Source of the DNA: a virus
Direction: 5' to 3' (one strand)
Virus record (IMG/VR): IMGVR_UViG_3300025000_000260
Location: 1-36,813 of that record
Length of the DNA stretch: 36,813 nucleotides
Shown here: positions 2,684 through 31,583 of the stretch, piece by piece
Numbering within the stretch: the stretch's first letter is position 1
Layout of the letters: the number at the start of each line of letters is the position of its first letter
Position numbers and translations under genes: made by a program
The notes under the pieces: model-generated
Databases searched by the model: none
The model's input: the letters and a program-made list of their open reading frames with translations, nothing else
What the model was told of the DNA's origin: nothing

Positions 2684-4178
2684 GGCTCGTGAGAAACGGG
2701 AGCTAGAGGCCACGGAAAAGGCCAGGGTCGAAGAACTGAAGACCAAGGCGAAGGAATCCGGCCTCACGCCCCAGGATGGACCGCAAACTGACTTCTGGGT
2801 AACGAAAGCCGATATCGCGATCTACGGCGGATCAGCGGGCGGCGGAAAGAGCTGGTCGCTTCTTGCAGAGGGCACGAAGCACCGGGATGTTCCCGGCTTC
2901 GGTGCCGTCGTCTTCCGACGCACCTTCTCCCAGGTCACCCAGCAGGGCGGCCTCTGGGACAAGTCAGAGGAGATCTTCCCCACACTCGGAGGGCGATCCA
3001 ATCAGACGGCCCACAAGTGGACCTTCGGCGGGAACGGCGAAATCCAGTTCGCCCACCTGCAGTACGAGAGCGACAAACACAACTACCAGGGCGCCGAAAT
3101 CTGCCTCCTCGAGTTCGACGAACTGACCCATTTCACCGAGAGCCAGTTCTTTTATATGCTCTCGAGGAACCGCTCTACCTGCGGGGTGAGACCCTACACG
3201 AGGGCATCCTGCAACCCAGACGCCGACTCCTGGGTCGCGCGCTTCCTTGCATGGTGGATCGATCAGGATACGGGCTTTCCGATCTCCGATCGTGCCGGCG
3301 TGTTGCGCTGGCTGATTCGGGATGGCGACGATCTGATCTGGGGTGACAGCGAAGCGGAGTTGAGGGAGAAATACCCGCACCTCTGGGAGCGAGACCCAAA
3401 ACTCGAGGCGAAATCGGTTACCTTTATCCCTGCGTGTCTGGACGACAACAAAATTCTCCAGGAAAAGGATCCGGGGTACCGATCAAACCTGATGCTCCTG
3501 GACCGGGTAGAAAGGGAGCGCCTCCTCGGTGGCAACTGGAAGATCAGGGTGGCAGCCGGGGAGTTCTTCAAGCGTCGCTACTTCCGGATCATCGAGACCA
3601 CCCCGACCGACATCATCGCCTGGATCCGTTACTGGGACCGGGCGGCCACCGAGGCCAAACCCAAGAAGGATCCCGACTGGACGGTCGGCGTCTTGATGGG
3701 CGTGACCAAGGAGAATCACTTCGTCGTGGCCCACGTCGAACGCTTCCAGGGTTCTCCCTTGGATGTCGAGACGGCGATCCAGCGCATCACCGAGCAGGAT
3801 GCGGCGACCTTCGGAGATCGGTACACAATCGGCATCGAGCAAGACCCCGGGCAGGCCGGAAAGTTCGAGATCGCCTCCTACATCAGGTTGCTCGCGGGGT
3901 ACGACGTCCGGGCCTTCCCAGCCCGGCAAGACAAGGTCACCCGGGCCAAGCCTTTGAGTGCCCAGGCGGAAGGGGGCAATGTGGACCTAGTAAAAGGCCC
4001 CTGGAATGACGCCTACCTGAACGAGCTCGAGGGATTTCCAAAGGCGGCCCACGATGACCAGGTGGACGGATCGAGCGGCGCCCTCAACGCCCTTTGCGAC
4101 ACCAAGAAGACGGAATTGCCCTCCGACCTGTCCGGGATGGACTTCGGCGGGATGACCAGTGGATGGAGTATGCAATGA
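2589..4178 (+). CDS. terL: Terminase large subunit
   Basis: This is the packaging motor: an N-terminal ATPase that pumps DNA into the prohead and a C-terminal RNase H-fold nuclease that cuts it. Walker A is GGSAGGGKS at residues 80-88 and Walker B is ICLLEFDEL at 171-179 with catalytic E178. A coupling motif near SCNP at 207-210 follows. Nuclease acidic residues are D350 in RYWDRA, E417/D419 in GIEQDP, and D489/D490/D493 in AHDDQVDGSSGA. At 529 aa it is complete. The start at 2589 lies inside the small subunit gene but is preceded by the near-perfect GGAGGTGATC, so the long overlap is accepted. Confidence 0.96.
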   Translation: MQINVPRFSRPSKGDGGPSGLTENPALRGLRRAREKRELEATEKARVEELKTKAKESGLTPQDGPQTDFWVTKADIAIYGGSAGGGKSWSLLAEGTKHRDVPGFGAVVFRRTFSQVTQQGGLWDKSEEIFPTLGGRSNQTAHKWTFGGNGEIQFAHLQYESDKHNYQGAEICLLEFDELTHFTESQFFYMLSRNRSTCGVRPYTRASCNPDADSWVARFLAWWIDQDTGFPISDRAGVLRWLIRDGDDLIWGDSEAELREKYPHLWERDPKLEAKSVTFIPACLDDNKILQEKDPGYRSNLMLLDRVERERLLGGNWKIRVAAGEFFKRRYFRIIETTPTDIIAWIRYWDRAATEAKPKKDPDWTVGVLMGVTKENHFVVAHVERFQGSPLDVETAIQRITEQDAATFGDRYTIGIEQDPGQAGKFEIASYIRLLAGYDVRAFPARQDKVTRAKPLSAQAEGGNVDLVKGPWNDAYLNELEGFPKAAHDDQVDGSSGALNALCDTKKTELPSDLSGMDFGGMTSGWSMQ

Positions 4179-5590: not shown

Positions 5591-6563
5591 GGTCTTCCTT
5601 GCCCATACCCTCGACGGCTTCCTCTCCCGCATTACCCCCATCTTGAAGGCCATCAACCCAGAAGACCTCCCCACCCACGAGGTGGCCGACAAAGCCGTCC
5701 CTCGGTGGATCAAAGATTTCCTCGATGTGGTCAAGGAAACCCAGGGCAAGATCGTCCTGGCTCGCATCGAAGCGGCCTTCGCAACCGGCAACCTGGAAAC
5801 GGTCATGAAGACCATCCCCTGGGAGACGATGGAGACCGGATTGAGCGAGCGCTGGCGGGTCGCGATCGAGAAGCTCGTCGCTCAGGGTGCCACCGCCAGC
5901 AGCGGATCGCTTCCTCCGCCTCCCGTGACAGGGTTGTCCGTCCGCTTCGACGTCACCAATCCCCGGGCGGTTGAATGGGTGGACCGGCACGCCGCCGACC
6001 TGGTCACCAGAGTTTCAGCAGAATCCAGAACAGCGATCAAGGAGACGATTCAACGCGCATTCACCGATGGAAAACACCCCTACGAGAGCGCGCGAATCAT
6101 CAAAGAGCGCATCGGACTACTCCCCAAGCACGCTCGCGCTGTTGAGAAGTTCGAGGCAAGGGAAAGGCATAACCTGCTTGAAAAGAACCCGAAGATGTCC
6201 TTTGAGGAAGCGTCGGCAAAGGCAAGGGGAAAGGCCGCGAAGTACGCCGCGAAGCTGCTGAAATACCGGGCCGAGAACATTGCTCGCACGGAAACCTTGA
6301 CCGCATCAAACCGGGGGCAGCTTGAGCTCTGGCAGCAAGCCGTTGAACAGGGCTTCCTTCCGAAGCACGTTCGCCGCAAATGGCTGCTGACAGACGACGA
6401 TCGCCTGTGCTCGACTTGCGCGGAAATGGCGGGCGCGACCGCCGGCCTTGACGAGGTCTTCACCGGTCCAGTGAGCGAAGAAGGCAAGGTTTTGGCGGGT
6501 GACTGCGAGACACCACCTCTCCACCCCAGCTGCAGGTGCTCGATGCGCCTTGTCATCGAATAA
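5583..6563 (+). CDS. Head morphogenesis protein (Mu F / SPP1 gp7-like)
   Basis: The ATG at 5583 overlaps the portal stop by 8 bases and has AAGGAG upstream. The C-terminal half carries the MuF signature: YRAENIARTET, then NRGQLELWQQA, RRKWLLTDDDRLCSTC, and a final LHPSCRCSMRL. The paired Cys (CSTC and CRC) are the conserved metal- or fold-binding positions. Family members are minor head proteins bound to the portal and needed for head assembly. The N-terminal 120 residues are helical and not conserved in an obvious way. At 326 aa it is of usual length. Confidence 0.9.
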   Translation: MNRVFLAHTLDGFLSRITPILKAINPEDLPTHEVADKAVPRWIKDFLDVVKETQGKIVLARIEAAFATGNLETVMKTIPWETMETGLSERWRVAIEKLVAQGATASSGSLPPPPVTGLSVRFDVTNPRAVEWVDRHAADLVTRVSAESRTAIKETIQRAFTDGKHPYESARIIKERIGLLPKHARAVEKFEARERHNLLEKNPKMSFEEASAKARGKAAKYAAKLLKYRAENIARTETLTASNRGQLELWQQAVEQGFLPKHVRRKWLLTDDDRLCSTCAEMAGATAGLDEVFTGPVSEEGKVLAGDCETPPLHPSCRCSMRLVIE

Positions 6564-27131: not shown

Positions 27132-27521
27132 ATGCCGACCCAACTCACCCCGCATTTCACCCTGGAAGAACTCCTCTGTAAGTGCGGGAAATGTACCCCG
27201 CCCGCACCGGTCGTCGCCAACCTCAAGCGCCTGGCGCCCGTCCTCGAAAAGATCCGCATAGCCCTGGGCAAGCCCGTGATCGTCAATTCCGGCTACCGCT
27301 GTCCTCATCGGAACGCCGAGGCGGGAGGCGTAGCCGATAGCCAACACGTCAAGGGTACCGCCGCCGATCTCACCATCGCAGGCGTGAGCCCTGGCAGGAT
27401 AGCAGAGGAAGCAGGAAAAATCGCCCAGGTCGGAGGCATCGGCGTCTATCCTTATCAGGGGTTTTGTCACGTAGACATTCGGCCCCGAGTAGGAGGACAA
27501 ATCACCCGCTGGAACGGATAA
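27132..27521 (+). CDS. Endolysin, peptidase M15 family
   Basis: A 129-aa zinc peptidase of the M15A/VanY-like type that cuts peptide links in peptidoglycan. Zinc ligands are H72 and D79 in SQHVKGTAADL and H113 in FCHVDIR. The IVNSGYRCPHRN segment before them is also diagnostic, and a CKCGKC turn lies near the start. There is no signal peptide, so it needs the holin. It starts at the base after the holin stop and is followed by a terminator. No spanin gene is obvious. Confidence 0.92.
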   Translation: MPTQLTPHFTLEELLCKCGKCTPPAPVVANLKRLAPVLEKIRIALGKPVIVNSGYRCPHRNAEAGGVADSQHVKGTAADLTIAGVSPGRIAEEAGKIAQVGGIGVYPYQGFCHVDIRPRVGGQITRWNG

Positions 27522-27526
27522 CAAAA

Positions 27527-27559
27527 AGCCCCGGTCGAAATGATCGGGGCTCTCTTTTT
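27527..27559. terminator. Bidirectional terminator between endolysin and - strand operon
   Basis: The stem AGCCCCGGTC / GATCGGGGCT (one G-T pair) with a five-base loop is followed by CTCTTTTT on the + strand; on the - strand it is followed by TTTTTG. It separates converging transcripts. Confidence 0.85.
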
Positions 27560-27956
27560 ACACCTGGGGGTTCTCTTTGTCGAACTCAAACTCCTCACCG
27601 TATTTGTCGAAATGGGCGATGACGTATATCGCATAAAAATCCTGAGGAGATACGTCAGGGGAGGTTGCGTGGATGGCCTCGCGGATCTCGTCGTCCATGT
27701 GGGCAACAACAGCCTCCCAGTCGAAGGTATTCCCAAAAATTGTCTTGATTTCCATTTTTTCCTCTCTCTCCAGCGCATCCAGCGCCATCTCGATCAGTTC
27801 TCCGATGTTGCCGCATCCGTGGCGGGCCTTGGCCTGTTTCATTCTCTCGATGGTTTCCGGCCTCAGTTTGGCCTGGTAGGGGACCGTGGGGAGGGAAGGG
27901 CGACCAGCGCCCTCCCTTGCCCCGCCCGAGTTTGCCCGGGGACCGCCTCTAGGCAT
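27558..27956 (-). CDS. Putative DNA-binding protein (132 aa), second gene of a - strand operon
   Basis: ATG at 27956 overlaps the first gene's stop (TAATG). Residues 1-20 (MPRGGPRANSGGAREGAGRP) are an AT-hook-like basic Gly/Arg/Pro arm. Residues 25-65 (KLRPETIERMKQAKARHG, IGELIEMALDALEREE) look like a ribbon-helix-helix unit. The acidic C-terminal part (VVAHMDDEIREAIHATSPDVS, EFEFDKENPQV) resembles small acidic proteins of mobile elements. This is the profile of an autoregulator or antitoxin. Repeated operator-like sites stand at the operon promoter. Functions compatible with this are a toxin-antitoxin pair or an anti-CRISPR operon; neither is shown. Confidence 0.65.
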   Translation of the reverse strand: MPRGGPRANSGGAREGAGRPSLPTVPYQAKLRPETIERMKQAKARHGCGNIGELIEMALDALEREEKMEIKTIFGNTFDWEAVVAHMDDEIREAIHATSPDVSPQDFYAIYVIAHFDKYGEEFEFDKENPQV

Positions 27957-28129
27957 TAATACATACCGCAATTATCAGGGTTGAGGCGATCTTCTTCGAG
28001 GGCTTCCCGTCCGCGCTTGAGGAGCTTGAGGTAATACCTATTCAGAGCGTCTGCATTTTCGATATCAACTCCGGCCCGCCTTGCAAACTTTTTCAGGTCT
28101 TCCATGTCGTACTTGTTGAGATTCATCAT
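27956..28129 (-). CDS. Small protein (57-58 aa), first gene of a - strand operon
   Basis: Two adjacent ATGs (28129 and 28126) follow AAAGGGGAAACG. The product is all helical and charged: DMEDLKKFARRAGVDIENAD, LNRYYLKLLKRGREALEEDR, then a short tail with one Cys. It looks like a small helical protein rather than a fragment. It is not recognised. It is transcribed from the promoter at 28170-28197 and coupled by TAATG to the putative DNA-binding partner. Confidence 0.6.
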   Translation of the reverse strand: MMNLNKYDMEDLKKFARRAGVDIENADALNRYYLKLLKRGREALEEDRLNPDNCGMY

Positions 28130-28169
28130 TTTCGTTTCCCCTTTCGTGTTCTCTGCTCTCCACTCTTTT

Positions 28170-28216
28170 ATTATACACGGTATCAGCAAAAAGTAAACAG
28201 GTATTCAGCAAAAAAA
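28170..28216 (-). promoter_or_regulatory. Promoter with two operator-like direct repeats
   Basis: On the - strand, TTTACT (28192-28197) and a perfect TATAAT (28170-28175) are 16 bases apart, a good sigma-70-type promoter, 41 bases before the first gene. On the + strand, GGTATCAGCAAAAAG (28179-28193) and GGTATTCAGCAAAAAAA (28200-28216) are near-identical direct repeats; the first covers the spacer and the edge of the -35. This suits repression by a protein binding both copies. Confidence 0.7.
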
Positions 28217-28240: not shown

Positions 28241-28888
28241 ATGACCCAGCGAATCCAGTCTTTCATCGCCTTTGTCCTGGCGGGCATCATCATCACGACA
28301 GGAATCGCCCTCTTCCGTTCCTGCCAGGTCCCCCGGATCGTCATCCCGGCCACCCCCTCGATCGCCATCGCGACTCCTGCCCCCTCCCCATCCCCCCAGT
28401 TGCAGGCGGCGAGCAAAACCACCTCGACGGCGGCCGGTACCGGGACGCAAAAAACCAAGGTCACCCTCTGGCTGCCATCACCTGAAAACGCCAAAAAGCC
28501 GACCTCGCAGGAGGCCCAGGAAGGGGTCTTGACTGCTGTGCCCGGTACGTCTGGACCTGCCGGAAACTGGGGGAAAATCGAGATCGAGCTTGAGCAGGAG
28601 ATTTCGACCGCGGCCACCTCGAGCGGGGAGGCTTCGGCGTCGATCGCGCCCAACTGTCTACAAAATGTAGAAAGTTCGATCGGCATCATCGCCGGAACCA
28701 TGCCGGGTATCATCGCCCTCGACTGGAGAGCGATCCACCTCGGACCTCTCGGCCTCGACCTGGCGGCAAATCATCGGAGTGTTTCGGCTGGCATCTCGGC
28801 AGGCGGGAAAATCTTCGGACTCGCTGGAGGCTATCAGGCTTTCGATGGCGGGCGGGGAATTTTCGCAGCGGGAGGGGTGAGGTTCTGA
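28241..28888 (+). CDS. Membrane-anchored protein (215 aa), possible lysis accessory
   Basis: ATG at 28241 with a strong TTTTTTGGAGGTTCT before it. Residues 7-27 (QSFIAFVLAGIIITTGIALF) are a single membrane helix, likely a signal anchor, followed by one Cys. Residues 30-75 are Pro/Ser/Ala/Thr-rich. The last 60 residues are Gly-rich and beta-like (SVSAGISAGGKIFGLAGGYQ). Position after the endolysin suggests a spanin-like or envelope role, but there is no clear coiled coil. No family named. Its stop codon sits in an inverted repeat. Confidence 0.6.
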   Translation: MTQRIQSFIAFVLAGIIITTGIALFRSCQVPRIVIPATPSIAIATPAPSPSPQLQAASKTTSTAAGTGTQKTKVTLWLPSPENAKKPTSQEAQEGVLTAVPGTSGPAGNWGKIEIELEQEISTAATSSGEASASIAPNCLQNVESSIGIIAGTMPGIIALDWRAIHLGPLGLDLAANHRSVSAGISAGGKIFGLAGGYQAFDGGRGIFAAGGVRF

Positions 28889-29122: not shown

Positions 29123-29174
29123 AGTGGGGCCTTTGCGGAGGTGCGGCCTACTGCGGATCTACAAAGGCCCCACT
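29123..29174. other. Candidate attP: 52-bp dyad at the integrase 3' end
   Basis: Perfect 13-bp arms AGTGGGGCCTTTG (29123-29135) and CAAAGGCCCCACT (29162-29174) surround a 26-base centre that is only partly symmetric. The centre falls on the integrase stop codon. Length near 50 bp, outer inverted arms and a place next to the recombinase gene are those of serine-integrase attP sites. There is no T-run on either side, so it is not a good terminator. Confidence 0.45.
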
Positions 29175-30650
29175 TCTGATCCCGTTATAGCGCCGCATGT
29201 TCTCGCGGGGGACCGAGATGAACTCGCGTTCGTCTGACAGGGGAAACCTCGGATAGATCTTAAACTCTCCCACCGTCACAATGCAACGCTCGACCAGCAG
29301 GCGCAAGAGATCGCCACGCTTCTGCTCGTCCAGGTCAACCCACATCCCCATGAGGTCTTCGGATATCTGGAGATGTTTTGGCGCAAAGGGCTCGACAACC
29401 TTCATCCCTGAAAGCTCTCCGTCGATTCGTTTGATGTTCGCAGACATTTCCTTGATGTCCGTCACGCCGGATCGGAAAAGATCCTTCTCTCGCTCTCTCC
29501 TGGACTGGAGATCTTTTATCCGCCTCTCCCTGGCCTTGTCGTCTTTCGGCTTTGCCTTGCGAGGAGTCGACGCGGCATGCTTGATGGCTTCTCGAATCTC
29601 TAGCCCGATGGACGGCACCACCCGAAGCTCCAGAAACAGCCTCCCGATGCTTGGGCGAAGCTCGCAAGACGATTTTCCTTTATCGCTCATGCTTGAGCAA
29701 CGATAGTCGTATTGGGAATGTCGACGAAGAACGCTCCCGCACTCGCAATAAATCAACCCTGACCAGGCGTATTTCTTGCCAAAAATAGCGCGAGGGGAAC
29801 TTGCCGCGTTCTCATCCAATAGGCCTTGAGCGCGATCCCAGTCATCTTGAGAGACGATCGGCATGTGGGTGTTTTCGCACACGATCCAGGTTGACGGGTC
29901 TTGCCACTTCTTGCGCCTGCTCCCGGTGGACGTGCGGACATACTTGCTTCGCTGCCACACCGTCTTGCCGAGGTAGATCGGGTTTCGGAGGATGCCGCGC
30001 ACGGAGGTATAAGAGAACAGGCTTCCTGTTTTCGAGCGATACCCCAGGGCGTTCAAACGATCGGCGGTGCCTCGCAGGGTTCGATCCTGCAGGAAGGATC
30101 GGAACACCTCGCGGACGATCTCTGCATCTCCTTCCACCGTGACGAATTTTCCATCATCGACCGCATACCCCAGGGGAATCGCTCCCCAGTTTCGACGGCC
30201 ACCGGCTGCTATGTGGGCCATGGATGACTTGACCCGCTCTGCCGTGTTATCGCTCTCAACCTGAGCCCAGACCGCCAGCATGCCCACCATGGCAACGCCG
30301 TAATGCGTGGAAGTGTCGAAGTCCTGAGTGAGCGAAATGAAGGCTATGTCGTTGTCCTGGAGGACGCCCAGCACCTCATGAGTTTTTCTCATCGAGCGAG
30401 CCAGACGATCGAGCTTGTAAACGATCACGGCATCGAAGGCCCGCTTGCTCGCGGCGTCCATCATTCGCTTGAGCTCTGGCCGCTTGTCGTTCTTGCCGCT
30501 CATCACATCGACGTATTTACCCGCGAAGTGCCAGCCCTTTGCCTCACAGCGGGCTTGGGCCATTTCGAGTTGCGAATCCAGGGAGACACCTTCTTGCGCC
30601 TGCTGGGTCGTGGAGACGCGGGCGTATAAGACGGCGCGAGTTATAGCCAT
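29148..30650 (-). CDS. int: Large serine integrase
   Basis: A 500-aa serine recombinase. Residues 1-140 are the catalytic domain: nucleophile S13 in YARVST, then YKLDRLARSMR and the AQVESDNTAERVK stretch. Residues about 160-290 are the recombinase domain (GAIPLGYAVDD, VRGILRNPIYLGK). A zinc ribbon lies near 310-340 (CECGS, RCSS, CELR), followed by a long coiled coil (370-420). It inserts the phage genome at attB and leaves attL/attR. The ATG follows GAGGATTAA, and the gene directly follows the repressor stop, so both are in one transcript. The length is normal. Confidence 0.95.
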   Translation of the reverse strand: MAITRAVLYARVSTTQQAQEGVSLDSQLEMAQARCEAKGWHFAGKYVDVMSGKNDKRPELKRMMDAASKRAFDAVIVYKLDRLARSMRKTHEVLGVLQDNDIAFISLTQDFDTSTHYGVAMVGMLAVWAQVESDNTAERVKSSMAHIAAGGRRNWGAIPLGYAVDDGKFVTVEGDAEIVREVFRSFLQDRTLRGTADRLNALGYRSKTGSLFSYTSVRGILRNPIYLGKTVWQRSKYVRTSTGSRRKKWQDPSTWIVCENTHMPIVSQDDWDRAQGLLDENAASSPRAIFGKKYAWSGLIYCECGSVLRRHSQYDYRCSSMSDKGKSSCELRPSIGRLFLELRVVPSIGLEIREAIKHAASTPRKAKPKDDKARERRIKDLQSRREREKDLFRSGVTDIKEMSANIKRIDGELSGMKVVEPFAPKHLQISEDLMGMWVDLDEQKRGDLLRLLVERCIVTVGEFKIYPRFPLSDEREFISVPRENMRRYNGIRSGAFVDPQ

Positions 30651-31487
30651 TTAATCCTCAACGGTATGCCGGAGAACCTGCGCGACAATGGTCATCTCTG
30701 GAGTGATGTGGATTATCTTCGACTCCCCTTCGCCTGGAAGAGATTTCAGATAAGGACCCCACTTCGGATCCTCGCAATATTCTTTGCACATGCACCCGTC
30801 GCCCTTGATGTTTACGATCACCTTTTTGCCTGGTTGGGGCTGCTCGCCGTTCAGACGCTTGATAAAAAGAATAGCACCTTCAGTGAACCCCGCCGCCAAC
30901 ATGCTTGTTCCTGTAGCGATCAGAGTTCCGTCAGCCCCTTTGGCCTCTCGTTCATTCCAGTATTCGATACCTTGCGGCTCGTCCGGTATTACGCAAGGCT
31001 CTCCGCAGTTTATGTATCCATACATCGGCAATCCCACGAACTTTCCAAGCGGGGCAAGTGTCCCCGCAGGCGCGAGAAGGGCTGCTTGCTTTTCCCACAC
31101 CGATTCTACGTGAGATTGATCACTACTTCCACATATTTCATGTTTATTTGTAACTGTTTCAGGATTAACCAATTCATGAACGGAAGTTAAGGCGGGCTTT
31201 ATGGGGGCAAGTGGAGCCTGAGATCCAATAACTGAAATGGCTTTAGGTGTTGGCTCTGGACCGTTTCCGCGAACAAAGCGGCCTAGCTCCTCTTCGTCTA
31301 CCTGAAGTCCCTTAGATAGCTTCTGAATAGTGTCGGGGGCAGGCGACTTCGTTACTCGCCCAGCCATTATGTTCCCCAGGGAGCCAGGGTCCATCCCTGA
31401 TCGCCGAGCAAGCTCCCTCCTGGATATGCCCAACTCGGTACACCTCTTGACAATGTATTCAATTAAAGCGCCGATTGATGAATTCAT
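30651..31487 (-). CDS. CI/LexA-type repressor with S24 peptidase domain
   Basis: ATG at 31487 (278 aa) has AAAGGGG upstream; a longer frame starts at 31505. Residues 5-65 are an XRE helix-turn-helix (SRRELARRSGMDPGSLGNIM). The C-terminal part is a LexA/CI-type self-cleaving domain: cleavage site C161-G162 in YINCGEP, Ser195 in GTSMLAAG and Lys235 in MCKEY, 40 residues apart as in known members. DNA damage should trigger self-cleavage and induction. A long linker (75-145) separates the domains. It keeps the lytic genes off and is transcribed together with integrase. Confidence 0.92.
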   Translation of the reverse strand: MNSSIGALIEYIVKRCTELGISRRELARRSGMDPGSLGNIMAGRVTKSPAPDTIQKLSKGLQVDEEELGRFVRGNGPEPTPKAISVIGSQAPLAPIKPALTSVHELVNPETVTNKHEICGSSDQSHVESVWEKQAALLAPAGTLAPLGKFVGLPMYGYINCGEPCVIPDEPQGIEYWNEREAKGADGTLIATGTSMLAAGFTEGAILFIKRLNGEQPQPGKKVIVNIKGDGCMCKEYCEDPKWGPYLKSLPGEGESKIIHITPEMTIVAQVLRHTVED

Positions 31488-31501
31488 AAAACCCCTTTGA
31501 T

Positions 31502-31583
31502 GCAAAATTACAATAAACCCTGTTGTAAAAATACGCTCGCAGGGTATTGTATATTTACGACGATGGTGTTATTGTATTTCTAC
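31502..31583. promoter_or_regulatory. Operator array of the lysogeny switch
   Basis: Between the divergent repressor and Cro-like genes are three sites of the form GTA-N4-TAC: GTAAAAATAC (31525), GTATATTTAC (31549) and GTATTTCTAC (31574). A weaker one, GCAAAATTAC, lies at 31502. Steps are 23, 24 and 25 bases. Each is preceded by T or T-rich DNA (TTGTA). A possible rightward promoter is TTGTAA (31523) with TATTGT (31545); the leftward promoter is not clear. Confidence 0.72.

Follow-up and report, generated by a model that had tools for sequence, protein, structure and literature searches.

Single-chain Acr-Aca fusions with an HTH head are known among the inhibitors of Cas9 (AcrIIA1, AcrIIA11 and AcrIIA15) and of type I-F systems (AcrIF24). 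In AcrIIA15 an N-terminal HTH dimer is joined to a C-terminal DNA-mimic domain and the protein can hold Cas9 and its operator at once, one operator being located upstream of the -35 element and the other between -35 and -10 (PMC10901769). AcrIF24 is encoded second in an operon of two genes and represses this operon while it inhibits Cascade (PMC9638941). The proteins Aca1-10 share an HTH DNA-binding motif (PMC9410906), and in a 2024 paper the HTH was described as common to all known Acas (PMC10901769). An AP2-domain protein was proposed as an Aca beside relatives of AcrIC5 (PMC10732046), and ribbon-helix-helix (RHH) domains are on record for archaeal viruses, in some of their predicted anti-defence proteins (PMC11065993).

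For AcrIC5 itself it was demonstrated experimentally that it inhibits the type I-C systems of P. aeruginosa and E. lenta, and its relatives occur in Proteobacteria, Firmicutes and Actinobacteria (PMC7913775). A homologue from a Bifidobacterium prophage is also active (PMC10651486), and for small acidic Acrs including AcrIC5 a blockage of the target-DNA site was proposed (PMC10478522). Based on sequence, on a predicted structure and on analogy with these systems, we consider it reasonably probable that the second protein (ORF2) of the phage locus described here is a single-chain Acr-Aca fusion, in which an acidic type I-C anti-CRISPR domain is united with its own autorepressor, and that the locus serves a temperate phage as an accessory anti-CRISPR operon; this grading applies to the explanation as a whole.

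The window, that is the whole stretch of DNA which was analysed, comprises the 36,813 bases of the record IMGVR_UViG_3300025000_000260, a temperate tailed phage according to its gene content, whose plus strand carries the genes for terminase, portal, capsid, tail and endolysin. The two-gene operon is encoded on the minus strand between the endolysin gene and a serine integrase, and the features relevant here are the following.

27132-27521, plus strand: endolysin gene
27527-27551, both strands: bidirectional intrinsic terminator hairpin, common to the operon and to the plus-strand lysis genes
27558-27956, minus strand: ORF2, 132 aa
27588-27737, minus strand: AcrIC5 domain of ORF2 (aa 74-123), assigned by PF22147, by the 7yhr sequence and by predicted fold
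27759-27956, minus strand: N-terminal part of ORF2 (aa 1-66), with a GAGRP arm and RHH-like helices 33-45 and 51-64
27956-28129, minus strand: ORF1, 57 aa, with an ATG ATG start
28197-28170, minus strand: sigma-70-type promoter TTTACT-16-TATAAT, a consensus match only (10/12 positions)
28194-28214, minus strand: direct repeat 1, candidate operator, upstream of and overlapping the -35 element
28172-28192, minus strand: direct repeat 2, candidate operator, filling the -35/-10 spacer and reaching the first bases of the -10 element
29148-30650, minus strand: serine integrase (Resolvase, Recombinase)
30651-31505, minus strand: CI-type repressor (HTH_3), with the early region beyond

The two overlapping minus-strand genes proposed in the initial annotation were confirmed as frames of 57 and 132 aa with the overlap TAATG; a TTG at 27971 is an alternative start of ORF2 and would give 137 aa. 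Their coding signal is like that of the phage genes of the window (codon score per codon 0.41 for ORF1 and 0.25 for ORF2), and the other five frames of the ORF1 region score 0.08 at most. The bidirectional terminator was borne out too, since each strand can form the hairpin (-19.2 and -19.1 kcal/mol, z -4.8 and -5.7) and there is a T-run on each side. In the related phage L075 a relative of the 175-aa gene, an endolysin and a serine integrase follow each other in the same order and the operon is absent between them, which fits the behaviour of accessory cargo. Searching through the integrase, no near relatives of the phage were found; the contig L081 carries a relative of a tail protein (92%), ends inside that gene and had no match to the operon region. 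The divergent neighbour of the operon (28241-28888, plus strand) encodes a protein of 215 aa, in which an N-terminal stretch resembles a membrane anchor and a linker is rich in Pro, Ser and Ala, and had no PHROG match; this gene would have the repeat-bearing intergenic region in common with the operon.

Residues 74-123 of ORF2 match the Pfam family PF22147 (AcrIC5) with 55.3 bits, the cut-off being 27 (E 7.1e-15), and the best PDB match of ORF2 by sequence is 7yhr, the crystal structure of AcrIC5 (E 8e-6). The same structure was ranked first by Foldseek (rmsd 1.2 Å, target-normalised TM 0.84, 36% identity) for the predicted model of ORF2, which was built by AlphaFold with an alignment of family members and in which the C-terminal domain has a pLDDT of about 92. 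All the invariant and near-invariant AcrIC5 columns are kept (G75, V84, M87, D88, D89, R92, E93, Q105, F107, Y111 and H115 in ORF2 numbering). The acidic domain that had been claimed for the second protein is there: residues 69-132 have a net charge of -11 and a pI of 4.2, and residues 1-68 are basic (+3, pI 9.5). The AcrIC5 family was found in 0/14 control genomes and, among 397 + 397 sampled genomes of two phyla, in none besides the two seed genomes. It is a specific and rare family and not a generic acidic tail.

By sequence and by predicted fold the C-terminal domain of ORF2 belongs to the AcrIC5 family, of which it is a divergent member, with at most 48% identity to other AcrIC5 domains and a long branch in the domain tree. 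The description of the two proteins as unfamiliar holds for ORF1, which has no relatives in the collections searched, but not for ORF2, which is recognisable through this domain. From its family membership and by analogy with the characterised Acrs, the domain would be expected to inhibit type I-C CRISPR-Cas; it counts against such an expectation that AcrIC7, a distant homologue of another Acr, is without type I-C activity (PMC7913775).

The domain was compared in 34 viral and 7 genomic AcrIC5 loci, where the genomic loci came from a contig scan with one pattern only and are not a census. Most of these loci encode standalone proteins of about 57-73 aa. In the phage locus L033 (4839-5195) an excisionase-like HTH_17 (E 1e-9) is fused to the AcrIC5 domain in a 118-aa protein, which by its sequence would be a second type of Acr-Aca fusion. 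In L071, a Bacillota MAG (5989-6327), the domain is preceded by a FitA/CopG-like RHH (E 5e-4, below the cut-off) in a 112-aa protein, and this fusion gene begins 2 bp after a 115-aa gene without assigned function. C-terminal AcrIC5 domains are also carried by open frames of 134-177 aa in L030 (4641-5141), L032 (4481-5014), L039 (1324-1728), L074 (1049-1522) and L022 (4743-5159); the N-terminal parts in L022, L030/L032, L039 and L074, with provisional start codons, matched no known family. Some longer phage proteins are labelled 'AcrIC5-like domain-containing' in public databases. In the domain tree p-AU for the three DNA-binding fusions was 0.131, with an alignment too short to prove independent fusions; their independent origin is argued from the heads, which are different folds.

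Two further loci are worth recording. The pig-faeces microvirus L005 (MG945373.1), an ssDNA phage, has at 3016-3201, between VP2 and VP4, a gene for a standalone AcrIC5-like protein of 61 aa, a gene that is unannotated in the record; an anti-CRISPR in so small an ssDNA phage would be unusual. The Spirochaetales MAG of L072 has two matches to the AcrIC5 domain (G005:C10:10351-11193), which are separated by about 0.5 kb, and an open frame of 182 aa contains the second of them.

Among bacteria, the window's domain has its nearest relative (48% identity) in Stappia indica (L068). There an AcrIC5 gene and, after a gap of 3 bp, an HTH_3 gene form an apparent acr-aca operon (5896-6384), and two near-perfect inverted repeats at 5900-5916 and 5932-5948 flank the -35 element TTGACA. 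The genome encodes a type I-C Cas8c (E 1.5e-179). Among the seven genomes with an AcrIC5 domain, mostly MAGs, Cas8c was clear in this one and present as a weak fragment in one other, which counts against the explanation preferred here.

These data bear on the possibility that ORF2 carries an AcrIC5-family domain with a changed target, either another CRISPR subtype or a DNA-binding defence, and that the head directs or regulates it. The divergence and the long branch of the domain would suit such a change, as would the many contexts in which AcrIC5-like domains occur, including the microvirus and positions behind unrelated N-terminal extensions, but the positions invariant in the family are all kept, the predicted fold is the same, and the genome of the nearest bacterial relative, Stappia indica, has a type I-C Cas8c. 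We regard a changed target as rather doubtful.

The N-terminal part of the Acr-Aca fusion proposed for ORF2 consists of a GAGRP arm (aa 1-20) and of a stretch resembling an RHH (aa 26-66). In the AlphaFold model the two helices, 33-45 and 51-64, have a length and spacing suitable for an RHH, the strand is not formed in this monomer model, and the confidence of the head is moderate (47-78 in ten-residue blocks). The RHH-like part that had been suggested from the letters is supported in that the helices are predicted and the family RHH_10 is colinear with the head over 57 residues including the arm and the helices, but its score of 15.3 bits (E 0.024) stays below the family cut-off of 27. None of the RHH families was matched above its curated cut-off by the head, and no solved RHH protein was matched by it; ORF2 had no match to HTH families either and has RHH-like helices in place of the HTH typical of Acas. 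One weak phage match of the head carries an RHH annotation (E 5). On the plasmid pAgK84 the gene that follows parA directly encodes a protein which aligns with the head (38.5% identity over 52 residues, E 0.8). This hypothetical protein (L080, 2321-2719), which has an arm and an RHH-like stretch, is a candidate centromere-binding protein. The evidence for an RHH head, from sequence comparison and modelling, is suggestive and below proof, and we consider such a head quite likely. The arm, previously called AT-hook-like, is present but is a GAGRP arm, which a small-terminase-like protein (L002) has as well. As the arm of that protein was its sole strong viral match, the GAGRP arm turned out to be uninformative as a clue to the identity of the head.

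The direct repeats noticed at the promoter, at first estimated at about 15 bases, were confirmed as 21 nt each, 76% identical, with an exact core of 10 nt (TTTTTGCTGA) and a start-to-start distance of 22 bp. Among dinucleotide shuffles 2/1000 reached the identity over 21 nt and 8/1000 the exact run, and at two mismatches or fewer the motif occurs only at these two sites in the whole window. The TATAAT of the promoter is perfect as had been claimed, in the arrangement TTTACT-16-TATAAT (10/12), but the hexamers alone are not beyond chance, as 2 promoter-like sites were seen in a scan of 6.1 kb where 2.5 were expected. No inverted repeat of note, of the kind bound by Acas, was found within the operon promoter. 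To our knowledge the characterised Acas bind inverted repeats, and the direct orientation of the window's repeats counts against an Aca-like function. Autoregulation is supported nevertheless, since the repeats tile the promoter as in AcrIIA15 and the head is basic with RHH-like helices. Control by the phage CI repressor was considered and rejected: the repeat motif is absent from the CI/Cro region and confined to the operon promoter. A CRISPR-repeat-mimic RNA (Racr) of the kind that occurs beside an AcrIC5 homologue in Bifidobacterium (PMC10651486) was rejected as well: the vicinity of the operon holds no repeat like those of type I-C, and Rfam gave no match.

A basic head and an acidic tail in one chain, repeats at the promoter and ORF1 in the leading position of the operon would also be expected if ORF2 were mainly an RHH repressor, whose acidic tail is a DNA mimic tuning the operator binding of its own head, and ORF1 were the real effector. 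This we hold to be improbable, because the tail matches a characterised Acr family specifically instead of being a generic acidic one, and the domain works as an Acr where it stands alone (PMC7913775, PMC10651486).

ORF1 is predicted from its single sequence to fold into two helices (mean pLDDT 73). It had no match in Pfam, NCBIfam, PHROGs or PADLOC, no relatives in the viral contigs, phages and loci retrieved for comparison, and its weak PDB and Foldseek matches were rejected as noise. By analogy with the acrIF23-acrIF24 operon it is read as a candidate new Acr, a second inhibitor unrelated to ORF2, an assignment which we offer tentatively, as somewhat less than an even chance. That ORF1 is a small toxin and ORF2 an RHH antitoxin and autorepressor of a type II system, a reading suggested by the overlapping two-gene operon with an RHH-like second protein and a repeated candidate operator, and by the frequency of RHH heads in antitoxins, is highly improbable, as neither protein matches a toxin or antitoxin family (Pfam, NCBIfam, PHROGs, PADLOC) and the C-terminal domain is AcrIC5 and not a toxin-binding antitoxin tail; this part of the initial annotation fell away. 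Its other proposal, an Acr/Aca system made up of a small helical Acr and a separate autoregulator, is supported by the AcrIC5 domain and by the regulator-like second protein, but the roles are distributed differently: Acr and Aca would both reside in the second protein, and the regulator is not separate, since the AcrIC5 domain is fused to a probable DNA-binding part.

In the Acr-Aca fusion model, the acidic AcrIC5 domain of ORF2 would bind type I-C Cascade, probably at the entry of the target DNA, and block interference. Through the arm and the RHH-like head ORF2 would form dimers and attach to the two direct repeats tiling the promoter, and once accumulated it would repress its own operon. 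ORF1, co-transcribed and translationally coupled with ORF2, would most likely supply a second anti-defence protein, unrelated to the first. We infer the DNA-mimic mode, the operator binding, the repression and the role of ORF1 by analogy. An extended version of this model, in which ORF2 is also a built-in sensor, leaving its direct-repeat operator when Cascade captures the acidic domain so that the operon is derepressed, and in which ORF2 is moreover the first RHH-headed Acr-Aca fusion and ORF1 an Acr of a new family, is unlikely when all its parts are taken jointly; if the sensor reading were true, the anti-CRISPR output would track the amount of Cascade in the cell.

In the literature searched we found neither an RHH head on an Acr of a bacterial phage nor a self-regulating AcrIC5, an RHH-headed AcrIC5 fusion included. 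The AcrIC5 domain and Acr-Aca fusions are already known, and as far as we could find the probable RHH head on AcrIC5 would be the new part, while the multi-domain forms of AcrIC5 are catalogued in databases but apparently undescribed. Taken with L071 and L033, the window's locus suggests that different DNA-binding heads, RHH among them, have been acquired by the AcrIC5 domain. This broadens the features by which anti-CRISPR operons can be sought, and the locus nominates a 57-aa orphan protein as a candidate new anti-CRISPR. If the explanation is true, ORF2 would inhibit type I-C systems and regulate itself, a kind of inhibitor not met in the literature searched.

Compared with the described systems, ORF2 shares with the AcrIC5 of Pseudomonas (WP_089394111.1; 7yhr; PF22147) the predicted fold, the conserved positions and the carriage on a mobile element, with about 41% identity of the domain in a first alignment. 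The Pseudomonas protein is a 60-aa standalone Acr encoded near aca1 (HTH), whereas the window's domain comes at the end of a chain of 132 aa that has a DNA-binding-like head. Acas are encoded in the same operon as the acr; here the head is located even in the same polypeptide as the AcrIC5 domain. AcrIIA15 is a parallel in promoter layout, as the window's repeats are placed in the same way around the -35 element, but AcrIIA15 has an HTH head and inverted repeats and inhibits the Cas9 of S. aureus, and it was matched by neither half of ORF2. The AcrIF23-AcrIF24 pair resembles the locus as a two-gene operon whose second protein is Acr and autorepressor at once, as is proposed for ORF2; it differs in that AcrIF24 has its HTH in the body domain, an inverted-repeat operator and a type I-F target, and AcrIF24 too was matched by neither half of ORF2. 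In L071 an RHH head likewise stands before the AcrIC5 domain in the second gene of an apparent operon, without the GAGRP arm and with a head that has no detectable sequence kinship to that of the window. Stappia indica offers an AcrIC5 relative under a promoter with two repeated candidate operators, but there the Acr and its HTH_3 regulator are encoded by separate genes and the repeats are inverted. The fused head and the direct repeats of the window would replace a separate regulator and inverted repeats of this type.
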